From Methanobrevibacter sp. (GTDB taxonomy: Archaea > Methanobacteriota > Methanobacteria > Methanobacteriales > Methanobacteriaceae): a stretch of 64,000 bases of DNA. Location: contig NZ_JAFUHT010000030.1 of NCBI RefSeq assembly GCF_017468685.1, positions 1-64,000 on the forward strand, given 5' to 3'. The notes under the pieces were generated by a model. That model was not told where the DNA came from and did not search any database. It saw only the letters and a program-made list of their open reading frames with translations. This document shows, piece after piece, positions 1,336 through 19,994 of this stretch (positions within the stretch are counted from its first letter, which is position 1; each line of letters opens with the position of its first letter). Both the position numbers and the translations under genes were made by a program.

Positions 1336-2565
1336 ATGGTTTTGATTGAAATGTATGTGTCTAAAATTAGAGTAAAAAATTTTAAAACATTTGATGATGT
1401 TTGTTTGGATTTAAATAAATTCAATGTTTTAATAGGAGCTTGTGGTTCTGGTAAAACAAATTTCATTCAAGTATTTGAATTGTTAAATGACATATCATAT
1501 GATTTTCATGATGCTATTAAAAAGCATGGTGGAGGATATGTGAAAAACTTTAATTTACTTGAAAACAATCTTGAATCCTGTATTGAAGTACAATTCTCAA
1601 ACATCAACAAATCAATCAATTTAGGTTCAAATAAAGACATTTTACTTTCATTTAACAATGTGGATTATGAAATATGTTTCAATTTTTACCATGACGAGTG
1701 CAATGTTGGAAATGAGATTGTCAAATTAACTTGCAATGTTGAATATGAAAATAAGCAAATTGAGGACAATGAAATCATTATCAAAAACAATAATGGAGAG
1801 ATTAAAGTTGAATTTCTAAATGATTTAGAGGATTTGGAAATATCTGAAATAATTCCAGATACTTTAGCAGATATTGTTTCACAAAACTTCAAAAAGGACA
1901 ATACTCCAATTATAAATTCAGCATTGGCCACAATACCTGTTAAATGGGGTGATTTTTTTAAAAACATTTCCTCTTATGATTTTGATCCGAAATTCTGCAA
2001 AAACATCAACACCACAGGCAATGAAAAGTTAACAAAATATGGTGGAAACCTACCAATCGTTTTAAAAAACATTTTAAATGATGAAAATCGCAAAAAAGAG
2101 TTTCTAATATACTACACCAACCTGCTGCCTTACATTAAAGAAGTGTCTGTTGAAAAAGTATTGGATGAGGAACGTATTTTCATGATTATTGAAAAGTATA
2201 ATGATGTTAAAATCCCTGCACCATTTATTTCAGATGGAACCAGCTCAATAATGGCAATTTTAATTGCACTTTACTTCCAAGACGGTGAAATCATATTGAT
2301 TGAAGAACCTGAAAGACATATTCATCCTTCACTAATTAATCAACTGATGTTGATGATGGAATCAGTAGACAAACAGGTAATCGTAACAACACACTCTCCG
2401 GAACTTTTAAAATACTCTGAATTAGAAGATATATTATTCATATCCCGTGATGACAATGGATTTTCAAACATTAAAAGAATCATTGATAGTGATGTTGTAA
2501 AACCGTTCATTGATGAGTTGGGTGTTGATAGTGTTTTCGTTAATGACTATTTGGGGCTTGAATAA
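1336..2565 (+). CDS. AAA ATPase of the OLD/ABC type, probable defence ATPase
   Basis: This 409-residue protein starts like SMC/RecF/OLD-type ATPases (KIRVKNFKTFDDV) and carries Walker A GACGSGKTN near residue 37. Its C-terminal ABC signature and Walker B region reads SDGTSSIMAILIAL followed by ILIEEPERHIHP, then an H-loop-like VIVTTHSPELL. It is therefore a dimerising ABC-type ATPase that probably acts with a partner nuclease. The next gene begins directly after its stop codon and encodes a TOPRIM-like protein, so the two probably form one operon and one complex. An internal ATG at 1351 is an equally good start by comparison with the family. Codon use is very A/T-rich, like other accessory genes here. 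Whether it is a phage-defence ATPase is inference from the pairing. Confidence 0.75.
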   Translation: MVLIEMYVSKIRVKNFKTFDDVCLDLNKFNVLIGACGSGKTNFIQVFELLNDISYDFHDAIKKHGGGYVKNFNLLENNLESCIEVQFSNINKSINLGSNKDILLSFNNVDYEICFNFYHDECNVGNEIVKLTCNVEYENKQIEDNEIIIKNNNGEIKVEFLNDLEDLEISEIIPDTLADIVSQNFKKDNTPIINSALATIPVKWGDFFKNISSYDFDPKFCKNINTTGNEKLTKYGGNLPIVLKNILNDENRKKEFLIYYTNLLPYIKEVSVEKVLDEERIFMIIEKYNDVKIPAPFISDGTSSIMAILIALYFQDGEIILIEEPERHIHPSLINQLMLMMESVDKQVIVTTHSPELLKYSELEDILFISRDDNGFSNIKRIIDSDVVKPFIDELGVDSVFVNDYLGLE

Positions 2566-3096
2566 ATGAAGAATCTTTTTGTATTTGTTGAAGGAAAAGA
2601 GGACATCATGTTTGTTAAAAATGTTTTATATAACATATTTATCAAACGTTCCATTAATATTATTCCAATACCTTATCAAAGAACAAGAAATCATGAGGTT
2701 AAAAATCATATTAAAGCATCTAAGGCGGGTAATCATGATTATGTCTTGTTAAGCGATATGGATAGTCATAAATATGAATGCATCACTTCCAGAAAAAATC
2801 AACGTATTAAGGAGGTGGATGGTGAAATTACTCCTGATAAGATTATAATTGTTGTTGAAGAGCTTGAAAGCTGGTGTTTGGCAGGTATTGATGAGAGTAT
2901 TGAGGAATATGCTGATTTTATCGTTCCTGAAAACACAGATAATATCACAAAGGAAGATTTTGATGAAATTCTTTCAAATACTTCATTTAATAAAAATAAA
3001 ATCTTTAATTATTTAAGCTTTAATTTTAATGTAGATTTGGCTGTCAAAAGAAATAAATCATTCAAATACTTCTTAGAAAAATATGATATAATCTAA
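2566..3096 (+). CDS. TOPRIM-like / DUF4276-like partner of the ATPase
   Basis: This 176-residue protein begins FVFVEGKEDIMFV and then has LLSDMDSHK, the Glu and Asp-x-Asp pattern of a TOPRIM metal site. A later VVEELESWCLAG resembles the conserved E-x-E-x-W segment of DUF4276-type proteins. Such domains are nucleases or nuclease-like partners of OLD/ABC ATPases. Its ATG abuts the stop codon of the ATPase gene with no gap, so translation is probably coupled. A strong hairpin followed by T residues ends the unit at 3095-3120. The exact family was not confirmed; DUF4435 or RloB-like proteins are alternatives. Confidence 0.6.
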   Translation: MKNLFVFVEGKEDIMFVKNVLYNIFIKRSINIIPIPYQRTRNHEVKNHIKASKAGNHDYVLLSDMDSHKYECITSRKNQRIKEVDGEITPDKIIIVVEELESWCLAGIDESIEEYADFIVPENTDNITKEDFDEILSNTSFNKNKIFNYLSFNFNVDLAVKRNKSFKYFLEKYDII

Positions 3097-5492: not shown

Positions 5493-6212
5493 ATGGACAA
5501 ATTAAAGTGTGCTTTAGATGAGCTGAACGCTTCTATTAGGGATTTGGAAAATCAGATAGAAAATGCAAGACTTGAAGCTGAAGGCAATATCGAACCCTTA
5601 AAGCATGAGCTAAATCAAATCCGTGAGGATAAGCGCAGATTTGCATCTCACAATGATTTTGAGTCTGTTCAGACCTGCAGAAGACGTGAAGACAATCTCA
5701 AATTCAAAATCGAAGCCCATTGGAATCATCACTCAATGCTTAAAGGGGAACTTGTCAAACTGAAAAATGAAAGAACTGATTTGGGAAATAAAATCCAGCT
5801 TAAAAAAGACCAGATTAAAAGAAATGAAGAGATTTTAGCTCAAATAAACATTGTCTTAACTAACTATAAAAAGACCCAAAATCTCAAGAAGGCTGCAATT
5901 GATTCTAAAATCGACCCTGAACATGTCAGCCAATGGTTTGAATGGGGCAAAAGCAATTTCAACGAAACATATTCATATTTCTACACACAAATACTTGAAA
6001 TAGATGATTACTTTAAAAACATGGAAGCCTTAAAGCTTAAAGGTCAGATGGACAGTGTCATTGAAGCATATAAAAGGACTAATTCGCTAAAGGAGGCTTC
6101 CAGAATCGCAGGTGTCAGTTACGATACAGTTCAGTACTGGCAGGAATGGGGATCAAGAGGCTTTGGTGAGGAAAACACTTATTTTTACCGGAAACTTGAA
6201 TCATTAAAATAA
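5493..6212 (+). CDS. Coiled-coil protein with two C-terminal HTH-like modules
   Basis: Residues 1 to about 125 of this 239-residue protein are charged heptad-like coiled coil (for example DELNASIRDLENQIENARLE). Two related modules follow, at about 125-178 and 190-239. Each has a helix, an A-x-x-A-G-V/I-like turn, a W-x-x-WG motif, and then a Phe/Tyr-rich helix (KAAIDSKIDPEHVSQWFEWG and EASRIAGVSYDTVQYWQEWG). They resemble the small helix-turn-helix of phage terminase small subunits and recur many times in the 868-residue protein encoded at 8319. A GGAG ribosome binding site precedes the ATG. DNA binding is inferred; no enzymatic motif is present. Confidence 0.65.
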   Translation: MDKLKCALDELNASIRDLENQIENARLEAEGNIEPLKHELNQIREDKRRFASHNDFESVQTCRRREDNLKFKIEAHWNHHSMLKGELVKLKNERTDLGNKIQLKKDQIKRNEEILAQINIVLTNYKKTQNLKKAAIDSKIDPEHVSQWFEWGKSNFNETYSYFYTQILEIDDYFKNMEALKLKGQMDSVIEAYKRTNSLKEASRIAGVSYDTVQYWQEWGSRGFGEENTYFYRKLESLK

Positions 6213-7715: not shown

Positions 7716-7826
7716 ATGTGGGAATGTCCAAATTGCGGCGAAATAAACGATGATGATGTAGAGGACTGTGAATTCTGCGGCTGCTCACCGGATGTAAACT
7801 ACGGTTGGGTAGGCGAAAACTGCTAG
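7716..7826 (+). CDS. Tiny zinc-ribbon protein, 36 aa
   Basis: The ATG at 7716 follows GAGGTAAT. The 36 residues carry CPNCGEINDDDVEDCEFCG, a complete double-CxxC zinc ribbon, plus a short tail ending VGENC. It lies ten bases after the 55-residue zinc-ribbon gene and its stop overlaps the convergent DUF1232 gene by four bases. It looks like a free-standing version of the ribbons fused to larger proteins in this island. Confidence 0.6.
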   Translation: MWECPNCGEINDDDVEDCEFCGCSPDVNYGWVGENC

Positions 7827-8236
7827 AGCCCGATATATTCAACAATGCTTCTGATTTCGTCTTCACTGAGTATTTCCAAAGATTTCTTTTCGCATTCTTT
7901 GATTATACTTTCGATTTCGTCATCGAAGTATTGTTGGAGGAATTCATATCCGTGATGGGATGCTACCATTTTCAGGACATGGCTTGAAAGGTAAATGTCG
8001 TCTATATAACCGTATGGACCGTAAACCTGCTCGGAGATTATGTCATCAGGTGTTACATAGTATGCTATCGCTCCGCAGATAGGCAATTTGAGGGACCTGT
8101 CAACATCACTGTTCAGCAAGTCACATAACAGCTTGAACAGATTTGGTCCGTAATCGATAAATGATTCGTATTCTCCAGTGTAGGTTTCTAAATTTTCAAT
8201 TAAAGTGTCGTAGAAATCTTTGAAGGTAGCTTCCAT
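7823..8236 (-). CDS. DUF1232 / YkvA-like protein
   Basis: The central segment of this 137-residue protein, AIAYYVTPDDIISEQVYGPYG followed by YIDDIYLSSHVLKMV, matches the DUF1232 (YkvA) signature of a short helical hairpin with PxD and GxxDD motifs. Such domains are common in small membrane-linked or stress proteins of unknown role. This version has no obvious transmembrane helix. It is one of only two minus-strand genes inside the island, and its start faces that of the 868-residue HTH-array protein across an 82-bp divergent promoter region. Confidence 0.7.
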   Translation of the reverse strand: MEATFKDFYDTLIENLETYTGEYESFIDYGPNLFKLLCDLLNSDVDRSLKLPICGAIAYYVTPDDIISEQVYGPYGYIDDIYLSSHVLKMVASHHGYEFLQQYFDDEIESIIKECEKKSLEILSEDEIRSIVEYIGL

Positions 8237-8318
8237 TAATCCTCACCTATTATACATTTAAGATTTTCAAACTATTTAAATATGATTTAAACACAATATT
8301 AAAACAGAGGTGTAAAGA

Positions 8319-10925
8319 GTGTCTAATTTTGATTTTTTAAAAGACTTTGATAGCAAGTTATACAAGCTAGGAAACCGTATTGAAAAGCAGGTAAATACTT
8401 CTCCTTCCGGTGTAAAAGCAGATGCTACTACATTTCTAGAGCACATCTTAAAGGAATTGCTCAGCCAGGCAGGGTTGAAATACAACTCTAGAAAACCATT
8501 CACCGACCAGGTAGATGCAGTATTCAGATCAAATCTGAAGATGTCAAATGCCTACAGAGAACGTATCAAAAGCGCATACAACTACAGAAACAAGATCCAT
8601 GATGATTTTGATGAGATAGAAAAGCATGAATTTGAAGATGCTGTGCAGCTGCATGAAAAGCTGTTCTACATTGCCCGTAAATTCTACAGGGATTACAATG
8701 ATGACTATGATGAATATAAGGGAGTGCCGGACTTCAGGCCATTGGAGCTGGATTTTTCAGATGATGAGCTTGAAATGGTCAAAGTAAAAGACTTCAATGA
8801 GATAGTTGACGTGAAATTTGACTATTGTATAGTCTGTGGTCAGCCTAACCATTTGAACTATTCGATATACTGTCATAAGTGCTCCCGTAAGCTTGACAAT
8901 GCAAACAATTTCATTTCCGTCAGAAACGCATTCGGAAAGGATGCAAGGTTTACCAAGGAGGATCTCATTGAGTTCGGCATGCCTGAAGGATATGTAAACC
9001 AGTTCATCAACTCGATGGTGAGGGAAAACATGCTTAAGGTTGCAGGAAGATTCATCACCTTCAACAACATGTATATTGATGAATATCTGAATCGTATCGA
9101 CAACTATATTGCAGTGGGGGAGCTTATCACACGTTTCAAGGAGGATAAGATTTCACCGGCAGATATCAGACAGTCCCGTGAGTACAAGCTTGGGAAAATC
9201 AGACATGAACCTTTCTACCAGTTCTATAAGATTGTCAATCGTGAAATCCGCAAAAAATTCGAAAAGGATTTGCTTGCCACTGAAGACATCTGGCAAAGCA
9301 TAGACTACACAACAATTACAAATAAGGAACTTGAAAGATGGTATAATATAAACCTAGGTTACTATAAAAAAGGTCAGTTTAATGAATCATTCAATGTATT
9401 TAATGATTTGCTCATTGAAGACTATTTGAAATTGAAAAGCGAAGGTATAGTGGAAGATGAAATAAGAAAAACTTTAAATGTTTCCGATGAAATCTATGAT
9501 TTCTGGTGCGATTACAAGCCGGCATTCTTAAATGACCTGAAACAAATCAAGCTTGATTTGATTACACAGGCAATAAATGAAGGCAGGACTCGTGAAGAAA
9601 TTATAAAGTTCGCAGGAGTCTCATCCAAGGAATATGATGACATCTTCAAGGTTGCTGACCGCAAAGGTGATGAAATATCTGTCCTTAGAAATCAGGAAAT
9701 AGAATCAAGGAAAAAGGAATTTGTCAAATACCTTCTTAACTTCGATTTGAAAATATCCTGTATGAAGGCAAAAATAACACTCAAGGACTTCTACAGATAC
9801 TTCGAGCAGGCGGACGTGAACTCAACATTCTATGTAAAGACAACACAGATACTGATGGACAAGTACCTGCTTCAGAGATCTCGTGGAAAAACAAAGGAGC
9901 TTGCACTTCAAATCACAGGCATTAAGGAGGAGTATCTGAACCGCTGGCTTTCAAGATCCGCTTACCGTGATTTCAAGGACCGTGACCTGAAAGTAACTGT
10001 TGGGTTGATTTTGAAAGGATTCAAGCAACAAAAGACATTGTCCGAGATAGCTCAAATCACAGGAGTCAACGAAAAGACCATAAAATCATATGTCAGACTC
10101 GGTGAGAGAGGTTCAGAAATATACCGTCCTTTGTTTGAGTATTATGAAGAAAAAATCATTCCAAAAAGACTGGAGAAGTTTTTATATGGTAATCAAACAA
10201 AATCAGTCAAAAGGGCATTGGATTCATCTAAATTAAGTGAAGATGAATTAAACAAATATTATGAATTGGGAAAATCAGGTGATAAAAGATTTGCTGAGTT
10301 TTATAATAAGTTTTTTGAAATTAAAAAAGGAACCTATGTCTACCAGAGAGACAGGGGAAAATCTCACAAGATTGCACTTAAGGAATCACATCTCACCAGG
10401 CAGGAATATGAGGAGTCTAAAGAGCAGCTGGAAAAATTGAGAATATTAAATAAGTTTCGCATAATTCTTGATACCATTTCAAATAAACAAACAAGCAATG
10501 TTGCAGCAAGCAAGGCTGGTTGTAGCGTAGAGGATATCTATGAATGGTATTTTAAAGGAAGAGATGGTGAAGAAGGTTATATTAAATTTTATGAGGCCTT
10601 CCATAAGGGTTATGTAAATGCCAGCGTTGTGCCTATGCAGGAAAAAATTGACAATGAAAACGCTAAACTGAACACACTCATTAAAAGCAACAAGGATAAG
10701 TTCACCAAAAAGGATGTTGAAATTTGGATAAAGCATGGCCTTTTGAATCCCCGTTTAAATATCGAATCCCACAATGATAAGGACGAAAATGAGGAAGACG
10801 ATGATTTGAAAAAGATTAATCTGGGCAAGATTAATAAATCAACAAGCAATCGATCCACTCTTGGAAGGGTTATCGACAGGGATTATGATGTTGAAAAGCT
10901 TAAAAAAGAAATTCTTAATGAATGA
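8319..10925 (+). CDS. HEPN-like, zinc-ribbon and HTH-module array protein (868 aa)
   Basis: A GTG start with an upstream GAGGTG is used. Residues 1-130 are helical and contain the R90-N-K-I-H94 motif in AYNYRNKIHDDF, similar to DUF4145/HEPN-type domains. C170, C173, C185 and C188 form a zinc ribbon. From about residue 320 to 765 there are eight or nine diverged repeats of about 45-55 residues. Each has a helix, an ALxxTGV-like turn (ITGVNEKTIKSYVRLGERGS, AASKAGCSVEDIYEWYFKG) and an aromatic helix, like the modules in the gene at 5493 and in terminase small-subunit HTHs. The tail is charged. It is probably a large DNA-binding scaffold; a HEPN RNase role is speculative because the usual motif spacing is slightly different. 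Confidence 0.6.
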   Translation: MSNFDFLKDFDSKLYKLGNRIEKQVNTSPSGVKADATTFLEHILKELLSQAGLKYNSRKPFTDQVDAVFRSNLKMSNAYRERIKSAYNYRNKIHDDFDEIEKHEFEDAVQLHEKLFYIARKFYRDYNDDYDEYKGVPDFRPLELDFSDDELEMVKVKDFNEIVDVKFDYCIVCGQPNHLNYSIYCHKCSRKLDNANNFISVRNAFGKDARFTKEDLIEFGMPEGYVNQFINSMVRENMLKVAGRFITFNNMYIDEYLNRIDNYIAVGELITRFKEDKISPADIRQSREYKLGKIRHEPFYQFYKIVNREIRKKFEKDLLATEDIWQSIDYTTITNKELERWYNINLGYYKKGQFNESFNVFNDLLIEDYLKLKSEGIVEDEIRKTLNVSDEIYDFWCDYKPAFLNDLKQIKLDLITQAINEGRTREEIIKFAGVSSKEYDDIFKVADRKGDEISVLRNQEIESRKKEFVKYLLNFDLKISCMKAKITLKDFYRYFEQADVNSTFYVKTTQILMDKYLLQRSRGKTKELALQITGIKEEYLNRWLSRSAYRDFKDRDLKVTVGLILKGFKQQKTLSEIAQITGVNEKTIKSYVRLGERGSEIYRPLFEYYEEKIIPKRLEKFLYGNQTKSVKRALDSSKLSEDELNKYYELGKSGDKRFAEFYNKFFEIKKGTYVYQRDRGKSHKIALKESHLTRQEYEESKEQLEKLRILNKFRIILDTISNKQTSNVAASKAGCSVEDIYEWYFKGRDGEEGYIKFYEAFHKGYVNASVVPMQEKIDNENAKLNTLIKSNKDKFTKKDVEIWIKHGLLNPRLNIESHNDKDENEEDDDLKKINLGKINKSTSNRSTLGRVIDRDYDVEKLKKEILNE

Positions 10926-11050: not shown

Positions 11051-12217
11051 ATGAATAGTGAATTTAAAAAAGATTTAGTCAATGCTAGCGAACTTAAGAC
11101 TGTCGGAAAAAATAAAGAAGCTTTAACATATTTTGAAAAAGCCTACAACCAGAATCCAGAAGCTTTTACAATCAATCAGAAAATTGATTACGCATGGACA
11201 ATGTTTCATGTCAAAATCAAAAACTTCAAAAGTGAAGATGAGCTGATTTCATCAGCAGATTTCATAACTGAAATGCTTGTGCAAAAAGATCTAAACACCA
11301 ACCGCAGCTGTGTTTACACATCATCTGTTTTTAAAGTGTTAAAATACCTTAGAGATCAGCAGGATTACTACGGAATGATTCACTGGCTTGAAAAGTTAAA
11401 CCCTGATTTGCTGGATGAAAAGACATACAGAAATTACGGTAGGCTTCAGAAATCCAAAAAGGAAAAATATTATGATTGGGCAACTATTGCATATTTGAAG
11501 TCAATGGAATTTGAAAAATGCATAGATACATCAAAAAAGGCTCTAAATACCTTCAAGACATTCCTTGATGATGGAGATGCATGGTACAAATGGAGAATTG
11601 CAAAATCCCTATTGGAATTGAACCGCCTGGAAGATGCCCTTGCCTACTATCTGGAAGTGATTGAGGTAAAGCATGAATGGTACATGTACAGGGACATTGC
11701 AGAAATCTATTACAATTTAAACAAACCATTTGAAGCATTGAAATATCTCTGCCCTGCAGTATTGTCAAAAACACCACTGTCAAATAAAATCAATGTATAC
11801 TATCTGTGTTATAAGGTTTTCAAATCATTCAATCCTCCAATGGCCATAAAACATGCAGAGCTTTTCTGTCTTGTGAAAACTCAAAATGGTCATGCACTGC
11901 CTTATGAAATAGAGCAGCTCGATATTGACACTGCAGGTCTGAACTTTAAGGAATTGACAAGTGAAATCACTGGCCTTTGGATTCAGTACAAATACAAGGA
12001 CCAAAAGCGAGGGCATGGAACAGTGATCAATTTCATCAATGACAAAAACTTCGGATTTATTAAAACCGATGAGGGTGATGAGATATTTTTCCATAAAAAT
12101 GAATTTCAGGGAAGTGACATCTATATAGGTCAGCTTGTTTCATTTTACACTGAAAAGAGTTTTGATAATGTGAAAAACAAGCAGTCAGTTAAGGCTGTTA
12201 ATGTGAGAGGTGAATAG
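11051..12217 (+). CDS. TPR protein with C-terminal cold-shock-like domain
   Basis: Residues 1 to about 300 of this 388-residue protein are TPR-like helical repeats (KNKEALTYFEKAYNQNPEAF, LEDALAYYLEVIEVKHEWY, NKPFEALKYLCPA). About residues 322-385 form a cold-shock/S1-like beta barrel (HGTVINFINDKNFGFIKT, DEIFFHKNEFQG), with the RNP1-like GFGFI replaced by NFGFI. The cold-shock part would bind single-stranded RNA or DNA, and the TPR part a protein partner. The next small gene starts one base after the stop, so they are co-translated. The combination is rare and its function is unknown. Confidence 0.75.
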   Translation: MNSEFKKDLVNASELKTVGKNKEALTYFEKAYNQNPEAFTINQKIDYAWTMFHVKIKNFKSEDELISSADFITEMLVQKDLNTNRSCVYTSSVFKVLKYLRDQQDYYGMIHWLEKLNPDLLDEKTYRNYGRLQKSKKEKYYDWATIAYLKSMEFEKCIDTSKKALNTFKTFLDDGDAWYKWRIAKSLLELNRLEDALAYYLEVIEVKHEWYMYRDIAEIYYNLNKPFEALKYLCPAVLSKTPLSNKINVYYLCYKVFKSFNPPMAIKHAELFCLVKTQNGHALPYEIEQLDIDTAGLNFKELTSEITGLWIQYKYKDQKRGHGTVINFINDKNFGFIKTDEGDEIFFHKNEFQGSDIYIGQLVSFYTEKSFDNVKNKQSVKAVNVRGE

Positions 12218-12372: not shown

Positions 12373-13290
12373 ATGAGAAAATCATTCATAAAGCATGAAA
12401 ACTTAAAAAGGTCTTTGGAAGAAATGTACGATAATGAATTGACCGAGGATATGATAGACAGATTTGCCAATGAGTTAAGGCATTCAAATCTCATTCTTGC
12501 AGCTGACATCTCAGAAAGTGAAGTCGGCCTTGCAATGGCTGAAATCGATGGCGAAAATTACGGATTTCTCTTCACCGACATGGATGAGTTTCGAAAAACA
12601 TTCAGTGATGAGGAATGCGGATCCCAATTCTACGATTTTGATGTTTATCAACAAGTTATTGAGGATTTGGGAATTAATGGTTTTATCATTAATCCCAGCA
12701 CCGTCGGATTTATGCTCAAAAAGGAAATGATACTTGCATTGGATAATCTGCCAGATCATGAATTTTCTTCTGATGATGTATATTCTGCAGGTGAGCTGAA
12801 AAATCTCAAGGACTCCATTGACAATAGTGATTTGGAGGATTTCATTAAAGATTCGGGAAATATCGGAAGGTATGATGAGCTGTTTGATAAAATTTCAAGC
12901 TCAACCATGCTGACACTGATGATTTCGGTGGAGGATTTGACAGATTATCTTGAAGACGGTGTGATCTGCCTTCAAAAGACAGGTCCTTTGGGATTTCTCT
13001 ATCTTGATGAGGTGGGAGGTGAGTATGCCACAGTCTACACATCCGAAGATAAAATCAGCAATGTGAAAACTACAATGAACAAGTATTGCCAGATTGTCAA
13101 TTTCTCCCAGATGACCAGTTTCATTTTGAATGATGATATGGACGGGATTATAATCAATCCGAATTCAGACCATATTCTATTGACACGTGATGTGCTTATG
13201 GAGTACTATCCGTTGCTTGAAAAGACTTGCAATGACACCAGATTAAATACTGCAATATTTCACATGTTTTCAATTGGAGGTGAATCATGA
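12373..13290 (+). CDS. Two-domain SseB-like protein
   Basis: The protein has 305 residues with an excellent AGGAGG site. A short helical lead (residues 1-30) precedes the first SseB-like domain (LRHSNLILAADI, FLFTDMDEFRKTF, INGFIINPSTVGFML). A linker rich in Asp/Glu/Ser is followed by a second domain (MLTLMISVEDL, YATVYTSEDKISN, MDGIIINPNSDHILL). It is clearly paralogous to the genes at 14047 and 19089 in order and motif spacing. No catalytic motif is visible. Its stop overlaps the start of the next gene by ATGA. Confidence 0.7.
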   Translation: MRKSFIKHENLKRSLEEMYDNELTEDMIDRFANELRHSNLILAADISESEVGLAMAEIDGENYGFLFTDMDEFRKTFSDEECGSQFYDFDVYQQVIEDLGINGFIINPSTVGFMLKKEMILALDNLPDHEFSSDDVYSAGELKNLKDSIDNSDLEDFIKDSGNIGRYDELFDKISSSTMLTLMISVEDLTDYLEDGVICLQKTGPLGFLYLDEVGGEYATVYTSEDKISNVKTTMNKYCQIVNFSQMTSFILNDDMDGIIINPNSDHILLTRDVLMEYYPLLEKTCNDTRLNTAIFHMFSIGGES

Positions 13291-13580
13291 GTGAAGTAAA
13301 AATTCAGTTAAGCATTCAGGAAATGGTAAAGGATTTTGAAGAATTGAACCGCTATGATGAAAGGTTAGGGGTGCTTTTTGATTTGCAAAAAGCGACAGAC
13401 AAGCAAATCAGTGATTTCTATCATTACATGTACTTCTTAATCAAGAAATACATTCCAACTTTTGAAAAACATGTAAGCGATGAATTCTATTCAGATTCCT
13501 CTACAGAATATGACAGGGCACTGATATTGTATCAGATGCTTTATGAAAATTTTAAGGAAATTTTCTACAATTTGGTTTAG
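13287..13580 (+). CDS. Hypothetical helical protein, 97 aa
   Basis: This 97-residue protein begins at the ATGA overlap with the SseB gene, so it is translationally coupled to it. It is mainly helical and charged (QEMVKDFEELNRYDERLGVL, FYHYMYFLIKKYIPTFEKHV) with no cysteine pair or membrane helix. No family is recognised. A stem-loop with a T run follows its stop codon. By position it may be a partner of the SseB protein. Confidence 0.6.
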   Translation: MSEVKIQLSIQEMVKDFEELNRYDERLGVLFDLQKATDKQISDFYHYMYFLIKKYIPTFEKHVSDEFYSDSSTEYDRALILYQMLYENFKEIFYNLV

Positions 13581-13602
13581 TGATGGTAATGCAAATGATA
13601 GG

Positions 13603-13621
13603 TGACCTAAGGGTCATTTTT
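13603..13621. terminator. Hairpin terminator between convergent genes
   Basis: A short TGACC-taagg-GGTCA type stem (13603-13616) is followed by a T tract to 13621. It sits between the plus-strand gene ending at 13580 and the minus-strand regulator ending at 13607, and could serve both. Confidence 0.45.
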
Positions 13622-13912
13622 ATCATTCATTAAATAATCATTAACCATTTTAAAGCTTTCTTTACCTAAAGAGGTTGCGTGGTAAATTCTGCCTTTTTTC
13701 GCTTTCTCGTTCATGCATTTGATCAGTTTCTTTTCTTTCAAATCATGCAATGCAAGAGATACTTGCGCAGGTTTTAAGTTGGTTCTTTTGACAATATCGG
13801 ATGGTATTAGATATTCTGTTACTAGTGCTTCGAGAGTTTTATAGCGAGTTGATGAAATTCTGAGGAATCCAACCAAGTTCCACAATTCATCTTCGTCCGT
13901 ATTACTTACCAT
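13607..13912 (-). CDS. Winged-HTH regulator, paralogue of the gene at 36954
   Basis: This 101-residue protein is a winged helix. IPSDIVKRTNLKPAQVSLALHDL is the helix-turn-helix, and LIKCMNEKAKKGRIYHATSLG forms the wing. The start FLRISSTRYKTLEAL matches FVKISPYRTNTLKSI in the regulator at 36954, so the two are paralogues of one methanobacterial family. It is divergent from the SseB gene at 14047 with about 130 AT-rich bases between them, so it may control that promoter and possibly its own. The ligand or signal is unknown. Confidence 0.75.
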   Translation of the reverse strand: MVSNTDEDELWNLVGFLRISSTRYKTLEALVTEYLIPSDIVKRTNLKPAQVSLALHDLKEKKLIKCMNEKAKKGRIYHATSLGKESFKMVNDYLMNDKNDP

Positions 13913-14046
13913 GTTTTATTCATTTATTTGGCATGTAAAAACCTTTTATTTATATTTTTATTTTCATTTACTTTACATTTTATTTTTATTTTATTGGTTT
14001 TATTAACAAGATTTTATATAAATAATTCAAATACATATATTATACT

Positions 14047-14928
14047 ATGCAAATAACGAATAGTCATCTAAAAACAATTATTGGTCAGGCAAGTAATTTC
14101 CTTTTAAACGGTACTGCATTACCTGAAGACTTGGCATTTAATTTTGTTGAAGAATTGAAGGTGTCAAATTTAATCATTCCGGCTAATGTGCATGATGAGG
14201 GTATCAATTTCCCTCAGGTAGTGGGAAATAACGATTTGATTTTACTTCCATTATTCACGGACAATGAGGAATTTTCAAAAAAATACACTGATGAGTTTGA
14301 ACCTCTTTCCAATGAGCTGGCTTATTATGTCAACATAATAAATGATTTGGATTTTGACGGTATTATTATCAACAGTGAAAGTGATGAGTTTTTCATTGAT
14401 AAATACCTGTTGAATCAGATTACACCATTTAGCAGAAACAATACCGGAAAATATGATGCCTTAAAGCTAAAGGAAATCGCTGAAAATGTTTCAAATGATT
14501 TGCTAAAGGATATTATCCATAAAGGAGAGTATGAAGGGGATGTTTTAGGAATGCTTGGAGATTGCATTCTGCTTAATGTAGTTTCAAGCAATGATGTATG
14601 TGAGGATGGAATTTTATACCGTCATACTGCCCGTGACTTTAAGTTCACCACAGTCAAAAAGGGCATAAATGAATACGGAGTCCTGTTTACAGGCATCGAC
14701 GAAATCAAAAAATCCAGTTATAATCAGGACAATTATTATTTCCAGATTACAAACTATTTTGAAGTATTCAAGTATATTTTGATGAATGATTTGGATGGTG
14801 TGATTGTCAATCCTGGTCTTGAGGAATTTTACATTGAAAGGCATGTGCTGATTAGAATATATGAGGATGAAAGATTGGAAAATCCTGATTTGGCAAATTC
14901 AATTGATTATGCATTTAGGATTGAATGA
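14047..14928 (+). CDS. Two-domain SseB-like protein
   Basis: This 293-residue protein has two SseB-like halves. The first carries LKVSNLIIPANV, LLPLFTDNEEFSKKY and FDGIIINSESDEFFID. The second carries ILLNVVSSNDV, GVLFTGIDEIKKS and LDGVIVNPGLEEFYIE. It is more diverged from the other SseB paralogues than the pair at 12373 and 19089. It appears leaderless, with a TATA-like stretch (TTTATATAAATAA) about 35 bases upstream. The divergent wHTH gene upstream is a plausible regulator. An AAA ATPase gene follows about 90 bases later. Confidence 0.7.
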   Translation: MQITNSHLKTIIGQASNFLLNGTALPEDLAFNFVEELKVSNLIIPANVHDEGINFPQVVGNNDLILLPLFTDNEEFSKKYTDEFEPLSNELAYYVNIINDLDFDGIIINSESDEFFIDKYLLNQITPFSRNNTGKYDALKLKEIAENVSNDLLKDIIHKGEYEGDVLGMLGDCILLNVVSSNDVCEDGILYRHTARDFKFTTVKKGINEYGVLFTGIDEIKKSSYNQDNYYFQITNYFEVFKYILMNDLDGVIVNPGLEEFYIERHVLIRIYEDERLENPDLANSIDYAFRIE

Positions 14929-15017
14929 TTTTAATCAAAATTCATTTTTCGTGAAATGGGAAACATTAAACACAAGTTATATAATCTTTCAGGTCTAATG
15001 TATTTTTAGGTAAGATT

Positions 15018-16472
15018 ATGTTGGAATGGACTATTTGTACAAACTGCGGTAAAGTTTTAGATAATTCAAAAACAACTTGTCCGGCTTGTAATAAAAAAAC
15101 AGATAAATTGGATATTGATTTTTTAAAAAATCATTTGACAAATTTAACTTTTATAATCAAAACATTGGATATTCAGCTGGTTAAGGATAGCTGTCCCCAA
15201 ATCAAGGCTCAAAATGCGCCACTTGAAGTGCTTATTCTGGACGATTTATTTAAGTATTTCAGCTTTTTGGGTCTGGGTGATGGAAAAATAACAGATAATG
15301 AACTGGATTTTATAAACGAACTGCTTCAAACAAGCTACACATCCCAAGACATATTGAACCTCACAGATGATGAACTCGGGAAGGTGCCGGTATCATTTGA
15401 ATGCCTGCATGAACTGGATGTGTTTGCACAGGAATTTGACATGACTGGTGTCAAGTCCTGCAATGAACTTTTTGAATCATACAAATTCCTGGGCAAGTTT
15501 TTCATAACCGTGGATGGAAAACTGGACTCGGAAGTGCTTGAAAAATACAATCATTATATCGCCGGACTGGAAGAGGAGCTGGGAGACTATTTATTTGATG
15601 ACTATGAAATCAACTATACTTTTGATAAACCTGAAAAGGAAGAAGTTGAGGAAGAAAAACACAGTCTGGATGAGTATATGGATGAGCTAAACAAACTGAT
15701 AGGCTTAAGCAAGGTTAAAAAGGATGTCAACTCATTGATAAATCTTGTGCAGATTAGAAAACTAAGAAAAGAACGTGGCATAACTCAACCGCCGATGAGC
15801 CTGCATTTGGTGTTCAGCGGAAATCCCGGAACCGGAAAAACCACAGTTGCAAGACTGCTTTCAAAAATATATCATGAAATCGGTCTTTTGTCAAAGGGAC
15901 ATCTTATAGAAACCGACAGGTCAGGGCTTGTCGGAGGTTATGTGGGTCAAACTGCAATAAAAACAAAAGATGTAATCTCACAGGCAATGGGAGGCATATT
16001 ATTCATTGATGAAGCTTATTCTCTTGCATCAACATCAGAAAATGATTACGGTCAGGAGGCAATTGACACAATTTTAAAGGCAATGGAAGATAATCGTGAC
16101 GATTTGATTGTGATAGTAGCAGGATATCCTCAGTTGATGGACAGGTTCCTGCATTCAAATCCCGGTTTGGAGTCAAGATTCAACAAGTTCATATATTTTG
16201 AAGACTATAACGCAGAAGAGTTGTATGAAATATTCTGGCTCATGTGTGATGAGGCAAACCTGACACTCGATTCTGCAGGGGATGAATATATAAAACAGTA
16301 CTTCGCCAATTTATATGAACACAAATCCCCAAACTTTGCAAATGGAAGGGCTGTAAGAAACTTCTTTGAAGAGGTCATAACCGCTCAGGCAAATAGGCTG
16401 GCTCCAAAGGAAAACATAACAGATGAAGAGTTGAATACATTAACCTATGAGGACTTTTTAATTGAGGAATAA
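15018..16472 (+). CDS. Zinc-ribbon, TerB-like and CbbX/SpoVK-type AAA+ ATPase
   Basis: In this 484-residue protein, C7, C10, C21 and C24 form an N-terminal zinc ribbon. The next about 150 residues contain GLGDGKITDNELDFINELL and ITVDGKLDSEVLEKY, resembling TerB repeats. From about residue 220 there is a CbbX/SpoVK/EccA-type AAA+ module: Walker A GNPGTGKTTVA near 267, Walker B ILFIDEAYSL near 325, and an arginine-finger-like GLESRFNKFIYF. Such ATPases act as hexameric remodelling machines. The ribbon and TerB part probably choose the substrate. It sits two bases before a membrane-protein gene. The TerB assignment is tentative; the AAA assignment is firm. Confidence 0.8.
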   Translation: MLEWTICTNCGKVLDNSKTTCPACNKKTDKLDIDFLKNHLTNLTFIIKTLDIQLVKDSCPQIKAQNAPLEVLILDDLFKYFSFLGLGDGKITDNELDFINELLQTSYTSQDILNLTDDELGKVPVSFECLHELDVFAQEFDMTGVKSCNELFESYKFLGKFFITVDGKLDSEVLEKYNHYIAGLEEELGDYLFDDYEINYTFDKPEKEEVEEEKHSLDEYMDELNKLIGLSKVKKDVNSLINLVQIRKLRKERGITQPPMSLHLVFSGNPGTGKTTVARLLSKIYHEIGLLSKGHLIETDRSGLVGGYVGQTAIKTKDVISQAMGGILFIDEAYSLASTSENDYGQEAIDTILKAMEDNRDDLIVIVAGYPQLMDRFLHSNPGLESRFNKFIYFEDYNAEELYEIFWLMCDEANLTLDSAGDEYIKQYFANLYEHKSPNFANGRAVRNFFEEVITAQANRLAPKENITDEELNTLTYEDFLIEE

Positions 16473-16474
16473 TC

Positions 16475-17458
16475 ATGTCAAATAAGTTAGCTTTAAAAAA
16501 GGACAGTGATCTGGTTCATAAACTGTTCTACTGGTCATATCCTACAGGCAGTGTCCTTTCAAAATCAAAGGTTGCAGCAGTTTGTGTTTTTTTATATCTT
16601 TTTATAGTCTGGATATCAGCAGGTTTAAATCCTGTAATCATATTCATTTTATCCCTTTTCTTTGCAGGCATAACATTTCTGGTAGGCTTTCTTTTTCATC
16701 TGATTCTGTCAAAGCCATCACAAAATAAAATAAGAAACAATGATTATGGACTTGTTGAGGACATTAAGCATCTTGCATTTTACTGGCAGGACAGAAACGG
16801 TAACTACATTTTATCCAAAACCAAAATAATCTCATTTGTGATATTTGTAGTGATGTATATAGTGGGATTATTTAATGTAGAGTTATTATCAGTTTTAACA
16901 TCAATACTCTTTGCTTTGATATTTGAAGTTCCGGCATTTATAATAGGCTCTGCAATTCATAAACTAACTTTCAAGGATTTGCCTAAAAAGGAGATACCGT
17001 CAGAAAAAGTAAAACCTGCATCTGTTGAAAAGGTTTTTGAAATTCCCCAAAAACCGGAAATTATACCTGAATATCTTGATTATCAAATTCAGCTTGACAG
17101 CTTAAATTCCAAATTTACGAAAAAGGAAAAATCCACAAGGACACTGATTGAAAAGAGATTCCAGCCGCCACAATTGACATATACTCGTTTTATAAGTGGT
17201 GTAGATAAATCCTCACAGCTGTTTAAAAGAAACATCGAATCCGCTTTTACAATGATCAGTCTGGCAGATGAGTATTCACCGAGAATTGCCGGTGAAATAG
17301 AATCTAAAATCAAAATCCTAAACGCAATTATGGATAAACTGGATGATTTATCTAATGAACTTGTATTGAATGAAGATTTGTCCAAAAAAGAGGATGTTGA
17401 TAATCTGATAAATGAAATGGATGATTTGATTCAATCAGTTAAAAAATATGATTCATGA
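16475..17458 (+). CDS. Membrane protein with cytoplasmic helical domain
   Basis: About residues 30-90 and 115-165 of this 327-residue protein each hold a pair of hydrophobic helices (VAAVCVFLYLFIVWISAGL, IIFILSLFFAGITFLVGFL; IISFVIFVVMYIVGLF, LLSVLTSILFALIFEVPAF), giving about four membrane spans. Each pair follows a similar FYW-containing motif (KLFYWSYPTG, LAFYWQDRNG), so the membrane part looks like an internal duplication. A Pro/Lys-rich linker and a soluble helical domain (about 210-327) follow, loosely reminiscent of XpaC/TelA-type proteins. It starts two bases after the AAA ATPase stop and may be its membrane anchor or substrate. Confidence 0.6.
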   Translation: MSNKLALKKDSDLVHKLFYWSYPTGSVLSKSKVAAVCVFLYLFIVWISAGLNPVIIFILSLFFAGITFLVGFLFHLILSKPSQNKIRNNDYGLVEDIKHLAFYWQDRNGNYILSKTKIISFVIFVVMYIVGLFNVELLSVLTSILFALIFEVPAFIIGSAIHKLTFKDLPKKEIPSEKVKPASVEKVFEIPQKPEIIPEYLDYQIQLDSLNSKFTKKEKSTRTLIEKRFQPPQLTYTRFISGVDKSSQLFKRNIESAFTMISLADEYSPRIAGEIESKIKILNAIMDKLDDLSNELVLNEDLSKKEDVDNLINEMDDLIQSVKKYDS

Positions 17459-17518
17459 TTACTTTTCAAATGCTCTCTGGTTAATTTAAATATGTATTAA
17501 ATATTTAAATATTATTTA

Positions 17519-19096
17519 ATGTGGCAGTATAGTAACTATTCAAAAATAAGTCCTGAAGTTGAAAGGCATTTTCCATTTAAAAATCCCAGAAAAGACCAAT
17601 TGGAGACAATTTCAGAAATCGTCTATGCAATCGATAAGGGTTACAGATACATAGTTCTGGAAGCGGGGACAGGTACAGGAAAATCTGCCATTGCTGCAAC
17701 ATTATCATCAATTTATGAATCATCGTACATTTTAACCGTCACCAAACAACTGCAGGACCAGTATATGGATGATTTTTCAAATCTGAGCCTTGTAAAAGGA
17801 AGGAAAAATTTCCGATGCAGAAGGGATTTGGATTTGACATGTGATGAAGGAAAATGCATACTTGAAGCTGATGCATGTGAAAATCCAAAAACAGACTGCG
17901 ATTATTATATTCAAAAGTTTCAGGCATTAAACTCCAAAACAGTCATTTCCAATTATCACTACATGTTTTTGGAACTTAATTATGTTGGAGATTTTACCAA
18001 AAGGCAATTACTGATTTGTGATGAGGCCCATAATCTTGAAAATACGATAATGGGTCAGCTGAAACTTGAATTTTTAATGGATGATTTAAGGGATTATCTC
18101 AAGTTTGATGTAACCGATGAGATTCTCTATGAATTGGAAAACGGGGATTATGACACATGGATTTTATTTATACAGGAGGTAAAAAACCTGTATGAAAAGG
18201 AATTGGATAAAATTGCCAATGTCAATAAGCCACATCTGATTGAAAAGATATCATTCATTAAAAAGGAAATAAGCGACTGTAATCGTTTCATTGAAAACAT
18301 TACCTATGATCCCTACAGTTGGGTGTTCGATTATGATTCGGATTATGAGGTAATTGAATTTAAACCATTGAAAATTGATAACTATGCAAAAAACACCTTG
18401 CTTCGCTATGGTGATGTATGTATTTTTATGAGTGCAACAATCCTTGACTATAAATTCTTTTCCAGATGTCTGGGTTTAAATGATGATGAAGTATATCCGA
18501 TAAGACGTAAATCTCCCTTTGATTTGACAAGAAATCCTATAAAACAAGTGGATGAATTCAATCTGTCACATAAAACAATCAGGCAAAATGCTCCAAAAAC
18601 TGTGGAAGTGGTTAAATCCATTTTAAAAAAACATGAAAATGAAAAAGGAATTATCCATACTGTAAGCGGTCAGTGCAGGGATTATCTGATTGATAATCTC
18701 TTAGATTCCCGTTTGATAGAACACAACACCCAAAATCGTGTAGAGCAGCTTGAGAAATTCAAGAATTCAAATGATGCCAGCGTTTTGATTTCGCCGTCAA
18801 TGAATGAGGGTGTGGATTTGCCAGGTGATTTGTGTCGTTTTCAGATATTGTATAAATTGCCATATCCTGACCTGGCAGATAAGCAAATACGCTTAAGGGC
18901 AAATGCTGATGAGGATTGGTATAATTATAAAACGGCATTGAGCCTGATTCAAACTTATGGAAGGGGAATGAGGTCACATGATGATTATTGCGTAACCTAT
19001 TTCATCGATTCAAGGATTAGGGAATTTATTAAAAAGGATAAATTCCTACCAGATTCATTTAAATATCTTTTAAAACAAAATACTCTTGATGACTAA
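17519..19096 (+). CDS. XPD/DinG-family iron-sulfur DNA helicase
   Basis: This 525-residue superfamily 2 helicase has motif I EAGTGTGKSAIAA near residue 50 and the DEAH box LLICDEAHNLE near 168. Cysteines at 100, 108, 113, 120 and 127 could hold the 4Fe-4S cluster of XPD/DinG enzymes. Later motifs are FMSATILD and QTYGRGMRSHDD. These helicases unwind DNA 5' to 3' and act in repair or removal of R-loops. It is short compared with full XPD but has all helicase motifs. Its last codons overlap the next SseB gene, so it belongs to the island operon rather than being a stand-alone repair gene. Confidence 0.85.
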   Translation: MWQYSNYSKISPEVERHFPFKNPRKDQLETISEIVYAIDKGYRYIVLEAGTGTGKSAIAATLSSIYESSYILTVTKQLQDQYMDDFSNLSLVKGRKNFRCRRDLDLTCDEGKCILEADACENPKTDCDYYIQKFQALNSKTVISNYHYMFLELNYVGDFTKRQLLICDEAHNLENTIMGQLKLEFLMDDLRDYLKFDVTDEILYELENGDYDTWILFIQEVKNLYEKELDKIANVNKPHLIEKISFIKKEISDCNRFIENITYDPYSWVFDYDSDYEVIEFKPLKIDNYAKNTLLRYGDVCIFMSATILDYKFFSRCLGLNDDEVYPIRRKSPFDLTRNPIKQVDEFNLSHKTIRQNAPKTVEVVKSILKKHENEKGIIHTVSGQCRDYLIDNLLDSRLIEHNTQNRVEQLEKFKNSNDASVLISPSMNEGVDLPGDLCRFQILYKLPYPDLADKQIRLRANADEDWYNYKTALSLIQTYGRGMRSHDDYCVTYFIDSRIREFIKKDKFLPDSFKYLLKQNTLDD

Positions 19097-19994
19097 TCAC
19101 AAACACTTAAGAGTAGTTATAGAAGATATCTACGCAAATAACAATGAACTGACCGAAGAGCTGACATTAAGACTAATTAATGAATTCAGGTATTCAAACT
19201 TGTATATTCCAGCTAAAAGGGATGAATTTACATTAAATTTCATAATTTATGAGGATGACAATGGCCTGAAACTCACTCCTCTTTTTACAGATCCTGATGA
19301 GTTCAATAAATTCTTTAAGGGTGAGGAGGATATCGAGCTGATGCAGAACTCTTTTGAGTTATACCAGAATGTTCTGATGACAAGTGACATTGATGGATAT
19401 ATCCTAAATCCTGCAACTGAAAAGTATGTATTCAGCAAAGAGTTCATTTTGGATATTAAAAACATACCTAAAACCAATTTTTACTCTACAAACACATATT
19501 CCATTGATGAGCTAAAGGCATTAAAGGATTCAAGAAATGAAGATTTGGAAGATTTCATCAAAAACCCTCAAAATGTAGGCAATTATGAGGCGCTATTTGA
19601 AAAGATGTCCCAATCCAATCTGTTGACTTTGATGGTCAGTGATGTTGATTTGTCCTTGAAGGCTAAGGATGGTGTCATTTCCATGATGGATTCCGGTCCT
19701 TTAGCACAGATGTTTACAGATAATGTCGGAGGAGTTTATGCAACAGTCTTTTCAAGTGAGGACAAGCTCAAAGAAGTAAGCACTGATAAATTCACATATT
19801 CTCAGGTTATAAATCTTTCAATGCTTGTTAATTTTGTTTTATCAGAGGATATGGATGGAATTGTTTTAAACCCTGACAGTGACAATGTCTTGATTCCAAG
19901 GGTCACATTGCTCAGATATTCTTTGGGATTTGAGAAATTTGCCAATGATGAAAAGTTATCAAATTCAATATATTACATGTTTTTAATGCAGTAA
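19089..19994 (+). CDS. Two-domain SseB-like protein
   Basis: The ATG at 19089 is preferred over a TTG three bases earlier. It overlaps the helicase stop by eight bases. The 301 residues align along their length with the SseB protein at 12373. Both share LTxxLxxRxxNEFRxSNL-like starts, FTDPDEFNKFF/FTDMDEFRKTF, a linker DLEDFIK-N-x-NxGxYxxLFxKxSxSxxLTLM, and a second domain ending DGIVLNPDSDNVLIPR. The pair therefore arose by duplication. No active site is evident. It probably ends the main island transcript. Confidence 0.7.
   Translation: MTNHKHLRVVIEDIYANNNELTEELTLRLINEFRYSNLYIPAKRDEFTLNFIIYEDDNGLKLTPLFTDPDEFNKFFKGEEDIELMQNSFELYQNVLMTSDIDGYILNPATEKYVFSKEFILDIKNIPKTNFYSTNTYSIDELKALKDSRNEDLEDFIKNPQNVGNYEALFEKMSQSNLLTLMVSDVDLSLKAKDGVISMMDSGPLAQMFTDNVGGVYATVFSSEDKLKEVSTDKFTYSQVINLSMLVNFVLSEDMDGIVLNPDSDNVLIPRVTLLRYSLGFEKFANDEKLSNSIYYMFLMQ

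Follow-up and report, generated by a model that had tools for sequence, protein, structure and literature searches.

The window, a 64,000 nucleotide stretch of a Methanobrevibacter sp. contig, encodes an 868-aa protein in which a HEPN-like head is followed by a zinc ribbon, a winged helix, a long array of helix-turn-helix (HTH) units and an acidic tail, and which is paired with a DUF1232 gene. Our preferred though tentative reading is that the two genes may form a module of a Methanobacteriaceae-specific antiviral toolkit, with the 868-aa protein acting as a HEPN-headed sensor-effector. The data support the folds, the conserved R/H pair of the head, the linkage of the two genes and the presence of related parts in proteins encoded at other defence loci; an antiviral function, an RNase activity and a ligand for the array are what we infer. 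The coordinates of the features are collected in Table 1.

Table 1. Features of the two-gene locus and of the related coiled-coil gene (window positions; residues refer to the encoded protein).
Feature	Position	Strand	Basis
Coiled-coil protein with two HTH units (residues 121-170, 189-238)	5493..6212	+	repeat HMMs
Divergent DUF1232 partner gene, 137 aa	about 7823..8236	-	PF06803
Shared intergenic region, conserved AT-rich block (TTTAAATAT..ACACAATATTA) and GAGGTG-like ribosome site	8237..8318	.	alignment of 12 loci
868-aa protein (HEPN-like head, zinc ribbon, winged helix, HTH array, acidic tail)	8319..10925	+	ORF, homologs, AlphaFold2
HEPN-like (DUF4145-like) domain, residues 1-128, R90-N-K-I-H94	8319..8702	+	homolog alignment, DUF4145 matches, structure comparison, hhalign
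Four-Cys zinc ribbon, residues about 167-190 (C170, C173, C185, C188)	8817..8888	+	homolog alignment
Winged helix, residues about 186-266	8874..9116	+	structure comparison, zinc ribbon-winged helix HMM
Three-helix HTH array, residues 267-808, with weaker units at both ends	9117..10742	+	HMMs, AlphaFold2
Eight clear HTH units, residues 356-748	9384-10562	+	AlphaFold2

The ORF of the 868-aa protein opens with a GTG start codon. Homologs were found in 33 of 67 genomes of the same genus and in 36 of 138 genomes of the family. A search of 151 genomes of the phylum gave 41 with a match, all of them Methanobacteriaceae, and within this set the 868-aa family appears, by sequence search, to be found only there. 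No copy was found in the phage, plasmid and viral collections searched. One ortholog (L009 / L062) carries an in-frame stop codon, so the module is sometimes broken. Residue conservation was read from an alignment of 24 sequences taken from the 39-ORF homolog cluster, one row of which contains X residues. The AlphaFold2 model was built from a four-sequence input (67-100% identity) and has a mean pLDDT of 65.5, the array blocks being its most confident part (mostly pLDDT 75-90). With the full-length model as query, Foldseek returned no clear match in the PDB (best E 0.79) or among viral models (best E 0.0096), results which are uninformative for the array. Solved structures were also searched by sequence, but the best E values, 0.0034 for the whole family and 0.39 for the head, are not convincing, and no PADLOC model fits the protein except for a summed weak match to mad1.

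Residues 1-128 are modelled as a five-helix bundle, with helices across residues 5-126. When the isolated head was compared using Foldseek, the nine best matches were all to HEPN or HEPN-family structures (2hsb, 5yep, 6m6u, 6m6w, 1wty), at weak E values (0.09-1.2) and from a model of low confidence (mean pLDDT 55); the head is also of low confidence in the full-length model. Taken from the latter, it aligned to 2hsb with a Z score of 8.6 (116 residues), to 5yep with 8.5 and to 7ae2 with 7.8, these alignments covering 113-121 residues. A second structure comparison of the isolated head also ranked HEPN entries at the top, tied with other helical bundles (Z 9.1 both for MntA-HepT and for a diiron bundle). 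Because model confidence is low, the HEPN topology rests on the consistency of these matches, and to that extent the HEPN-like domain of the original prediction was borne out. The DUF4145 profile (PF13643) matched 2 of the 24 homologs at E <= 0.1, the window protein not among them, and a single homolog passed the curated cut-off in the genome search (23.3 versus 23.1 bits). An hhalign comparison between the head and one clear DUF4145 protein was weak (probability 8, E 0.0043).

All 24 aligned homologs keep R90 and H94 unchanged, with N or S mostly following the R. The spacing is Rx3H in 22 of the 24, including the window protein, and Rx4H in two. The HEPN motif is given as Rx4-6H in the parts of a HEPN survey available to us (PMC3710099), where several HEPN families are described as varying or lacking it and where Ex3[KR] is also named as a motif. 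The window protein has E41-x3-K45, in line with the second of these. On account of the Rx3H spacing, as against Rx4-6H, the head is labelled here as HEPN-like and not as a proven HEPN RNase; judged from its sequence, the RNase activity previously proposed from the RNKIH motif is plausible. The protein resembles DUF4145-like HEPN proteins in its N-terminal five-helix domain, its conserved R/H and its Ex3K in helix 2, but differs from them in its Rx3H spacing, its winged helix and its long HTH array, and it misses the Pfam model. According to a table in the same survey, as far as it was available, DUF4145-like HEPN domains are fused to zinc ribbons, sigma-HTH domains and restriction helicases, and occur in operons with restriction-modification and McrB/C genes.

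A domain related to the head was found at the N-terminus of a DndF-like protein (13609-16032 of L135) whose gene lies two genes from a DUF1232 gene (HMM E 1.8e-6). An hhalign comparison of the two domains gave a probability of 94.7 (E 6e-8), compared to 0.4 for an unrelated control. The DndF-like protein had no DUF4145 match in Pfam at E <= 0.05. Elsewhere (L056:7035-8241), three tandem stand-alone ORFs are head-like and lack a clear R..H pair; by eye, methyltransferase-like genes and a restriction-enzyme-like gene adjoin them.

The four cysteines of the zinc ribbon, which had been predicted together with the head, are invariant in 24/24 homologs. The winged helix that follows had been missed in the original prediction; it is a small alpha/beta unit to which winged helices of the ArsR, IclR and Zalpha types align at Z scores of 7-8.7. 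An HMM of the zinc ribbon-winged helix also finds very large relatives, hereafter giants.

Beyond the winged helix, the clear HTH units share one pattern in the AlphaFold2 model: a long first helix (~20 residues), a short second one (~8), then a turn of 3-4 and a third helix of ~10. Weaker helices at residues 253-350 and 755-805 may, on the model, be degenerate HTH units, giving about nine to eleven units if the weak ones are counted with the eight clear ones. Comparing the protein with itself gave a best ungapped score of 57 versus shuffle maxima of 36-52 (15 shuffles), and 83 offsets scoring >= 25 versus 39-55 in shuffles. As this excess is only modest, profile tests were used for the array. 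A repeat HMM made from five giants only scored the window protein at 70.6 bits (<= 8.8 in 200 shuffles), and one made from three giants and the coiled-coil protein at 5493 scored it at 73.8 bits (<= 8.4 in shuffles). These tests are cleaner than the family-trained HMM, which is partly circular and marks eight units at conditional E < 0.01 and a ninth at 0.011. An HMM from other family members found nine and five units in two giants.

In the coiled-coil protein the giants-only HMM scored 56.5 bits and two units (shuffles <= 9.0), at 32.6 bits for the first and 29.3 bits for the second; the HMM from other family members, made without the window sequence, gave 22.7 and 18.2 bits for them. Since the giants-only and family-member HMMs beat the shuffles or find the same units, both the array and the pair are taken to be real. 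The earlier description is therefore upheld in three respects: the array has an HTH fold, with three-helix units in the model; about nine modules are present, eight being modelled as regular units and the ninth marked by the HMM; and a pair of them occurs in the protein at 5493, where both the giants-only and the family-member HMM recover it. A relative of this coiled-coil protein lies near another ortholog (L060).

The label terminase-like did not survive. The best Pfam match of the array is the generic HTH_28 (20.9 bits in the window protein, cut-off 25); two giants that carry these units exceed the cut-off, at 41.1 and 35.8 bits. Terminase small-subunit profiles match weakly (PHROG E 0.07; Sf6_terminase E 0.0011-0.0039 in giants, below cut-off). 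Sf6-like terminase small subunits resemble the units in that their HTH leads into a G..G loop and then an aromatic helix; the window protein differs from terminase small subunits in carrying about nine units per chain and in its non-phage context, with no match in the phage, plasmid and viral collections searched and with archaeal chromosomal neighbours. A terminase small subunit was rejected on both profile and context.

It had also been suggested that the array reads long or repeated DNA, or that it might form filaments. The HTH fold stands, but support for DNA reading is weak: the third helices of the eight clear units are not basic, with net charges between -4 and +1, so base reading by every unit is doubtful. 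Over the turn and third helix, the average charge is -0.77 per repeat in 106 repeats from 12 orthologs and -0.09 in 47 repeats from giants and pair proteins. In conservation, the third helices show no consistent difference from the other helices in either direction. At least as good a fit is a solenoid scaffold, with the zinc ribbon-winged helix or the basic turn that precedes helix 2 doing most of the nucleic acid binding.

The partner gene, which the original prediction did not mention, encodes a protein matching PF06803 (DUF1232) at 28.3 bits (cut-off 23). A DUF1232 gene divergently adjoins the 868-aa gene at 12/12 loci of a clade (the window and L057-L067), whose members group together in a tree of 35. 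No DUF1232 gene accompanies the sister sequence (L068), which comes from another genus, and one more ortholog (L069) is truncated by the end of its contig. No additional defence gene is common to all 12 loci, and a common ancestry for the head and its DUF1232 partner was tried and not supported. The DUF1232 protein would be a regulator or an obligate partner of the 868-aa protein. A HEPN-MNT toxin-antitoxin pair was considered and rejected, as the partner is a DUF1232 protein and the scanned neighbours gave no nucleotidyltransferase match.

Two divergent genes flanking a conserved AT-rich intergenic region, together with the winged helix and HTH fold, could also be read as the mark of a DNA-binding regulator or autoregulator, which would bind the shared promoter and other sites through its zinc ribbon-winged helix and HTH units while the HEPN-like domain only dimerises; that one giant (L136) ends in TFIIB repeats agrees with this. 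We regard it as unlikely. An invariant R90/H94 in 24/24 homologs would be unexpected in a pure dimeriser, the third helices are not basic, and the conserved block may simply be promoters. Moreover, regulators seldom need about ten HTH units.

Among 137 family genomes, 23 contain homologs of the DUF1232 protein, at 27 places in all; 12 of these places are beside the 868-aa gene and 3 lack fetched flanks. At eight others (L053, L054, L130, L131, L132, L135, L136, L137) the gene adjoins another long zinc ribbon-winged-helix protein, and 6 of these eight neighbours have HTH units like those of the array as well. L133 has a long zinc ribbon-winged-helix protein four genes from DUF1232, in the same orientation and on the far side of PbeA- and PbeC-like genes, and in L134 the DUF1232 neighbour has a single HTH unit only. 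The remaining two loci (L138, L139) contain no zinc ribbon-winged-helix or array protein, which counts against the two-gene reading; L138 does have matches to PbeA, PbeC and a type IV restriction-like gene, and the gene lengths in L139 follow the same order.

At six of its loci DUF1232 is accompanied by EVE-like, BrxD/SngB-like and BrxHI/SngC-like genes. The PADLOC matches come from the gene set of one locus (L052) and were transferred to the others by similarity, and the EVE-like match is weak (19.6 bits versus a cut-off of 23). Relatives of BrxD/SngB occur in 14 of 137 family genomes; 10 of these loci have a long zinc ribbon-winged-helix protein beside the EVE-like gene, and 6 have DUF1232. 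In a scan of the 817 ORFs of the retrieved flanks with the zinc ribbon-winged-helix HMM, all matches longer than 900 aa outside the family were neighbours of this sort (L052-L054, L077, L130-L133, L135-L137, L141, L145, L146). The others covered the model only in part and fell in the EVE-like protein of L053 and in short zinc-ribbon ORFs of three kinds.

The giants vary beyond the shared units. The one with TFIIB repeats (L136:560-3748) is a 1,063-aa protein beside DUF1232, has two zinc ribbon-winged-helix units and carries the repeats at its C-terminus. Two others (L052:4639-9615 and L053:4850-9235) have, by eye, several 'GFAWV...WGV' units after their HTH units, and the related L133 protein has a weak AP2 match (E 0.02).

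A broader reading of these loci is that DUF1232 and a zinc ribbon-winged-helix/HTH-array protein make up a new Methanobacteriaceae recognition chassis, which would take interchangeable heads and serve several defence systems that are otherwise unrelated (BrxD-BrxHI/Shango-like, Pbe- and Dnd-type, and effector-headed stand-alone), the window holding the stand-alone, HEPN-headed form. Both the chassis and this list of systems are possible but doubtful. The same observations bear on a further alternative, in which the 868-aa protein has no effector of its own and is a recognition or scaffold subunit that cooperates in trans with further restriction-like systems in the cell. Its zinc ribbon-winged helix and HTH units do recur in giants beside BrxD/SngB and BrxHI/SngC, and DUF1232 is also found beside PbeA, PbeC and a type IV enzyme. 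However, a BrxD/SngB relative is absent from its own genome at E <= 1e-20 and the 12 pair loci share no further defence gene, and we consider this alternative improbable.

Shango comprises the TerB-like SngA, the ATPase SngB and the helicase SngC (PMC10250203, in the parts available), and BrxD and BrxHI are described as a closely linked pair of type 2 BREX (PMC12839542, likewise). The likeness to these systems is that relatives of DUF1232, of the zinc ribbon-winged helix and of the HTH units adjoin homologs of SngB/BrxD and SngC/BrxHI. In contrast, the ATPase and helicase are absent at the window locus. Membership of Shango was rejected, because SngB and SngC are not at the locus and the genome has no SngB/BrxD relative at the above threshold. 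The parts of the two papers available to us contain no description of the giants.

Other members of the 868-aa family also have defence genes nearby. Near one ortholog (L067) are the type III-A CRISPR genes Csm3, Csm4 and Cas10 with two Csx1 genes and DrmB, and the ortholog, both Csx1 genes and the Csm genes all point in the same direction. Neighbours of further members include BrxL (L066, L071), a type IV enzyme (L076) and Csx1 (L048), and several remoter members have no defence neighbours (L047, L074). A paralogous subfamily of 1,035 aa shares the head, ribbon and array, and one member is present in the genome of the window (C77). These paralogs have no DUF1232 neighbour and often occupy a conserved site beside ordinary genes. 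Because DUF1232 is missing and their neighbours are mostly ordinary, they were dropped as additional evidence for defence, the Csx1 gene near one of them (L048) notwithstanding.

Such paralogs, with conserved ordinary neighbours and no DUF1232, would suit a housekeeping protein of chromosome or RNA metabolism, whose defence neighbours were chance residents of a gene-rich variable region. This we find distinctly unlikely, given the patchy distribution of the family (33/67 genomes) and the DUF1232 homologs at Pbe and BrxD/SngB loci.

Several other genes of the window were observed in passing. An AAA ATPase and DUF4276-type pair (1336-3096) resembles PADLOC HEC-01 (E 1.2e-44 and 6e-8). A TPR protein with a cold-shock domain (11051-12217) matches the PADLOC 'TPR' model (E 1.5e-84), and its relatives are found in 10 of 41 clustered stretches. 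The block at 12373-19994 contains several SseB-like genes, an AAA protein with AAA_lid_6 (15018) and a DEAD_2/Helicase_C_2 helicase (17519), and recurs near other orthologs.

HEPN-headed proteins with nucleic-acid-binding domains are known from conflict systems; as far as our searches reach, the present architecture and its DUF1232 partner are not known from them. Among publications found on DUF1232, HTH repeats or Methanobrevibacter HEPN/BREX, no title or opening of an abstract, nor the available part of PMC7641849, describes the module. Returning to the two-gene, HEPN-headed sensor-effector, the zinc ribbon-winged helix and the HTH solenoid would be responsible for sensing and assembly, their ligand being an invader nucleic acid, a protein bound to nucleic acid, or a partner, for instance the DUF1232 protein. 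Binding of the ligand would relieve or organise the HEPN-like head, which would then cut RNA, and the infected cell or the virus would be stopped.

If this is correct, a modular sensor with DUF1232 would be common to several methanogen defence systems. It would also be the first defence role for DUF1232, the literature found under that name being, by title, on plant RING genes. The array would extend HTH units beyond single DNA readers to a long solenoid, and the two-gene module would be simple enough for testing.
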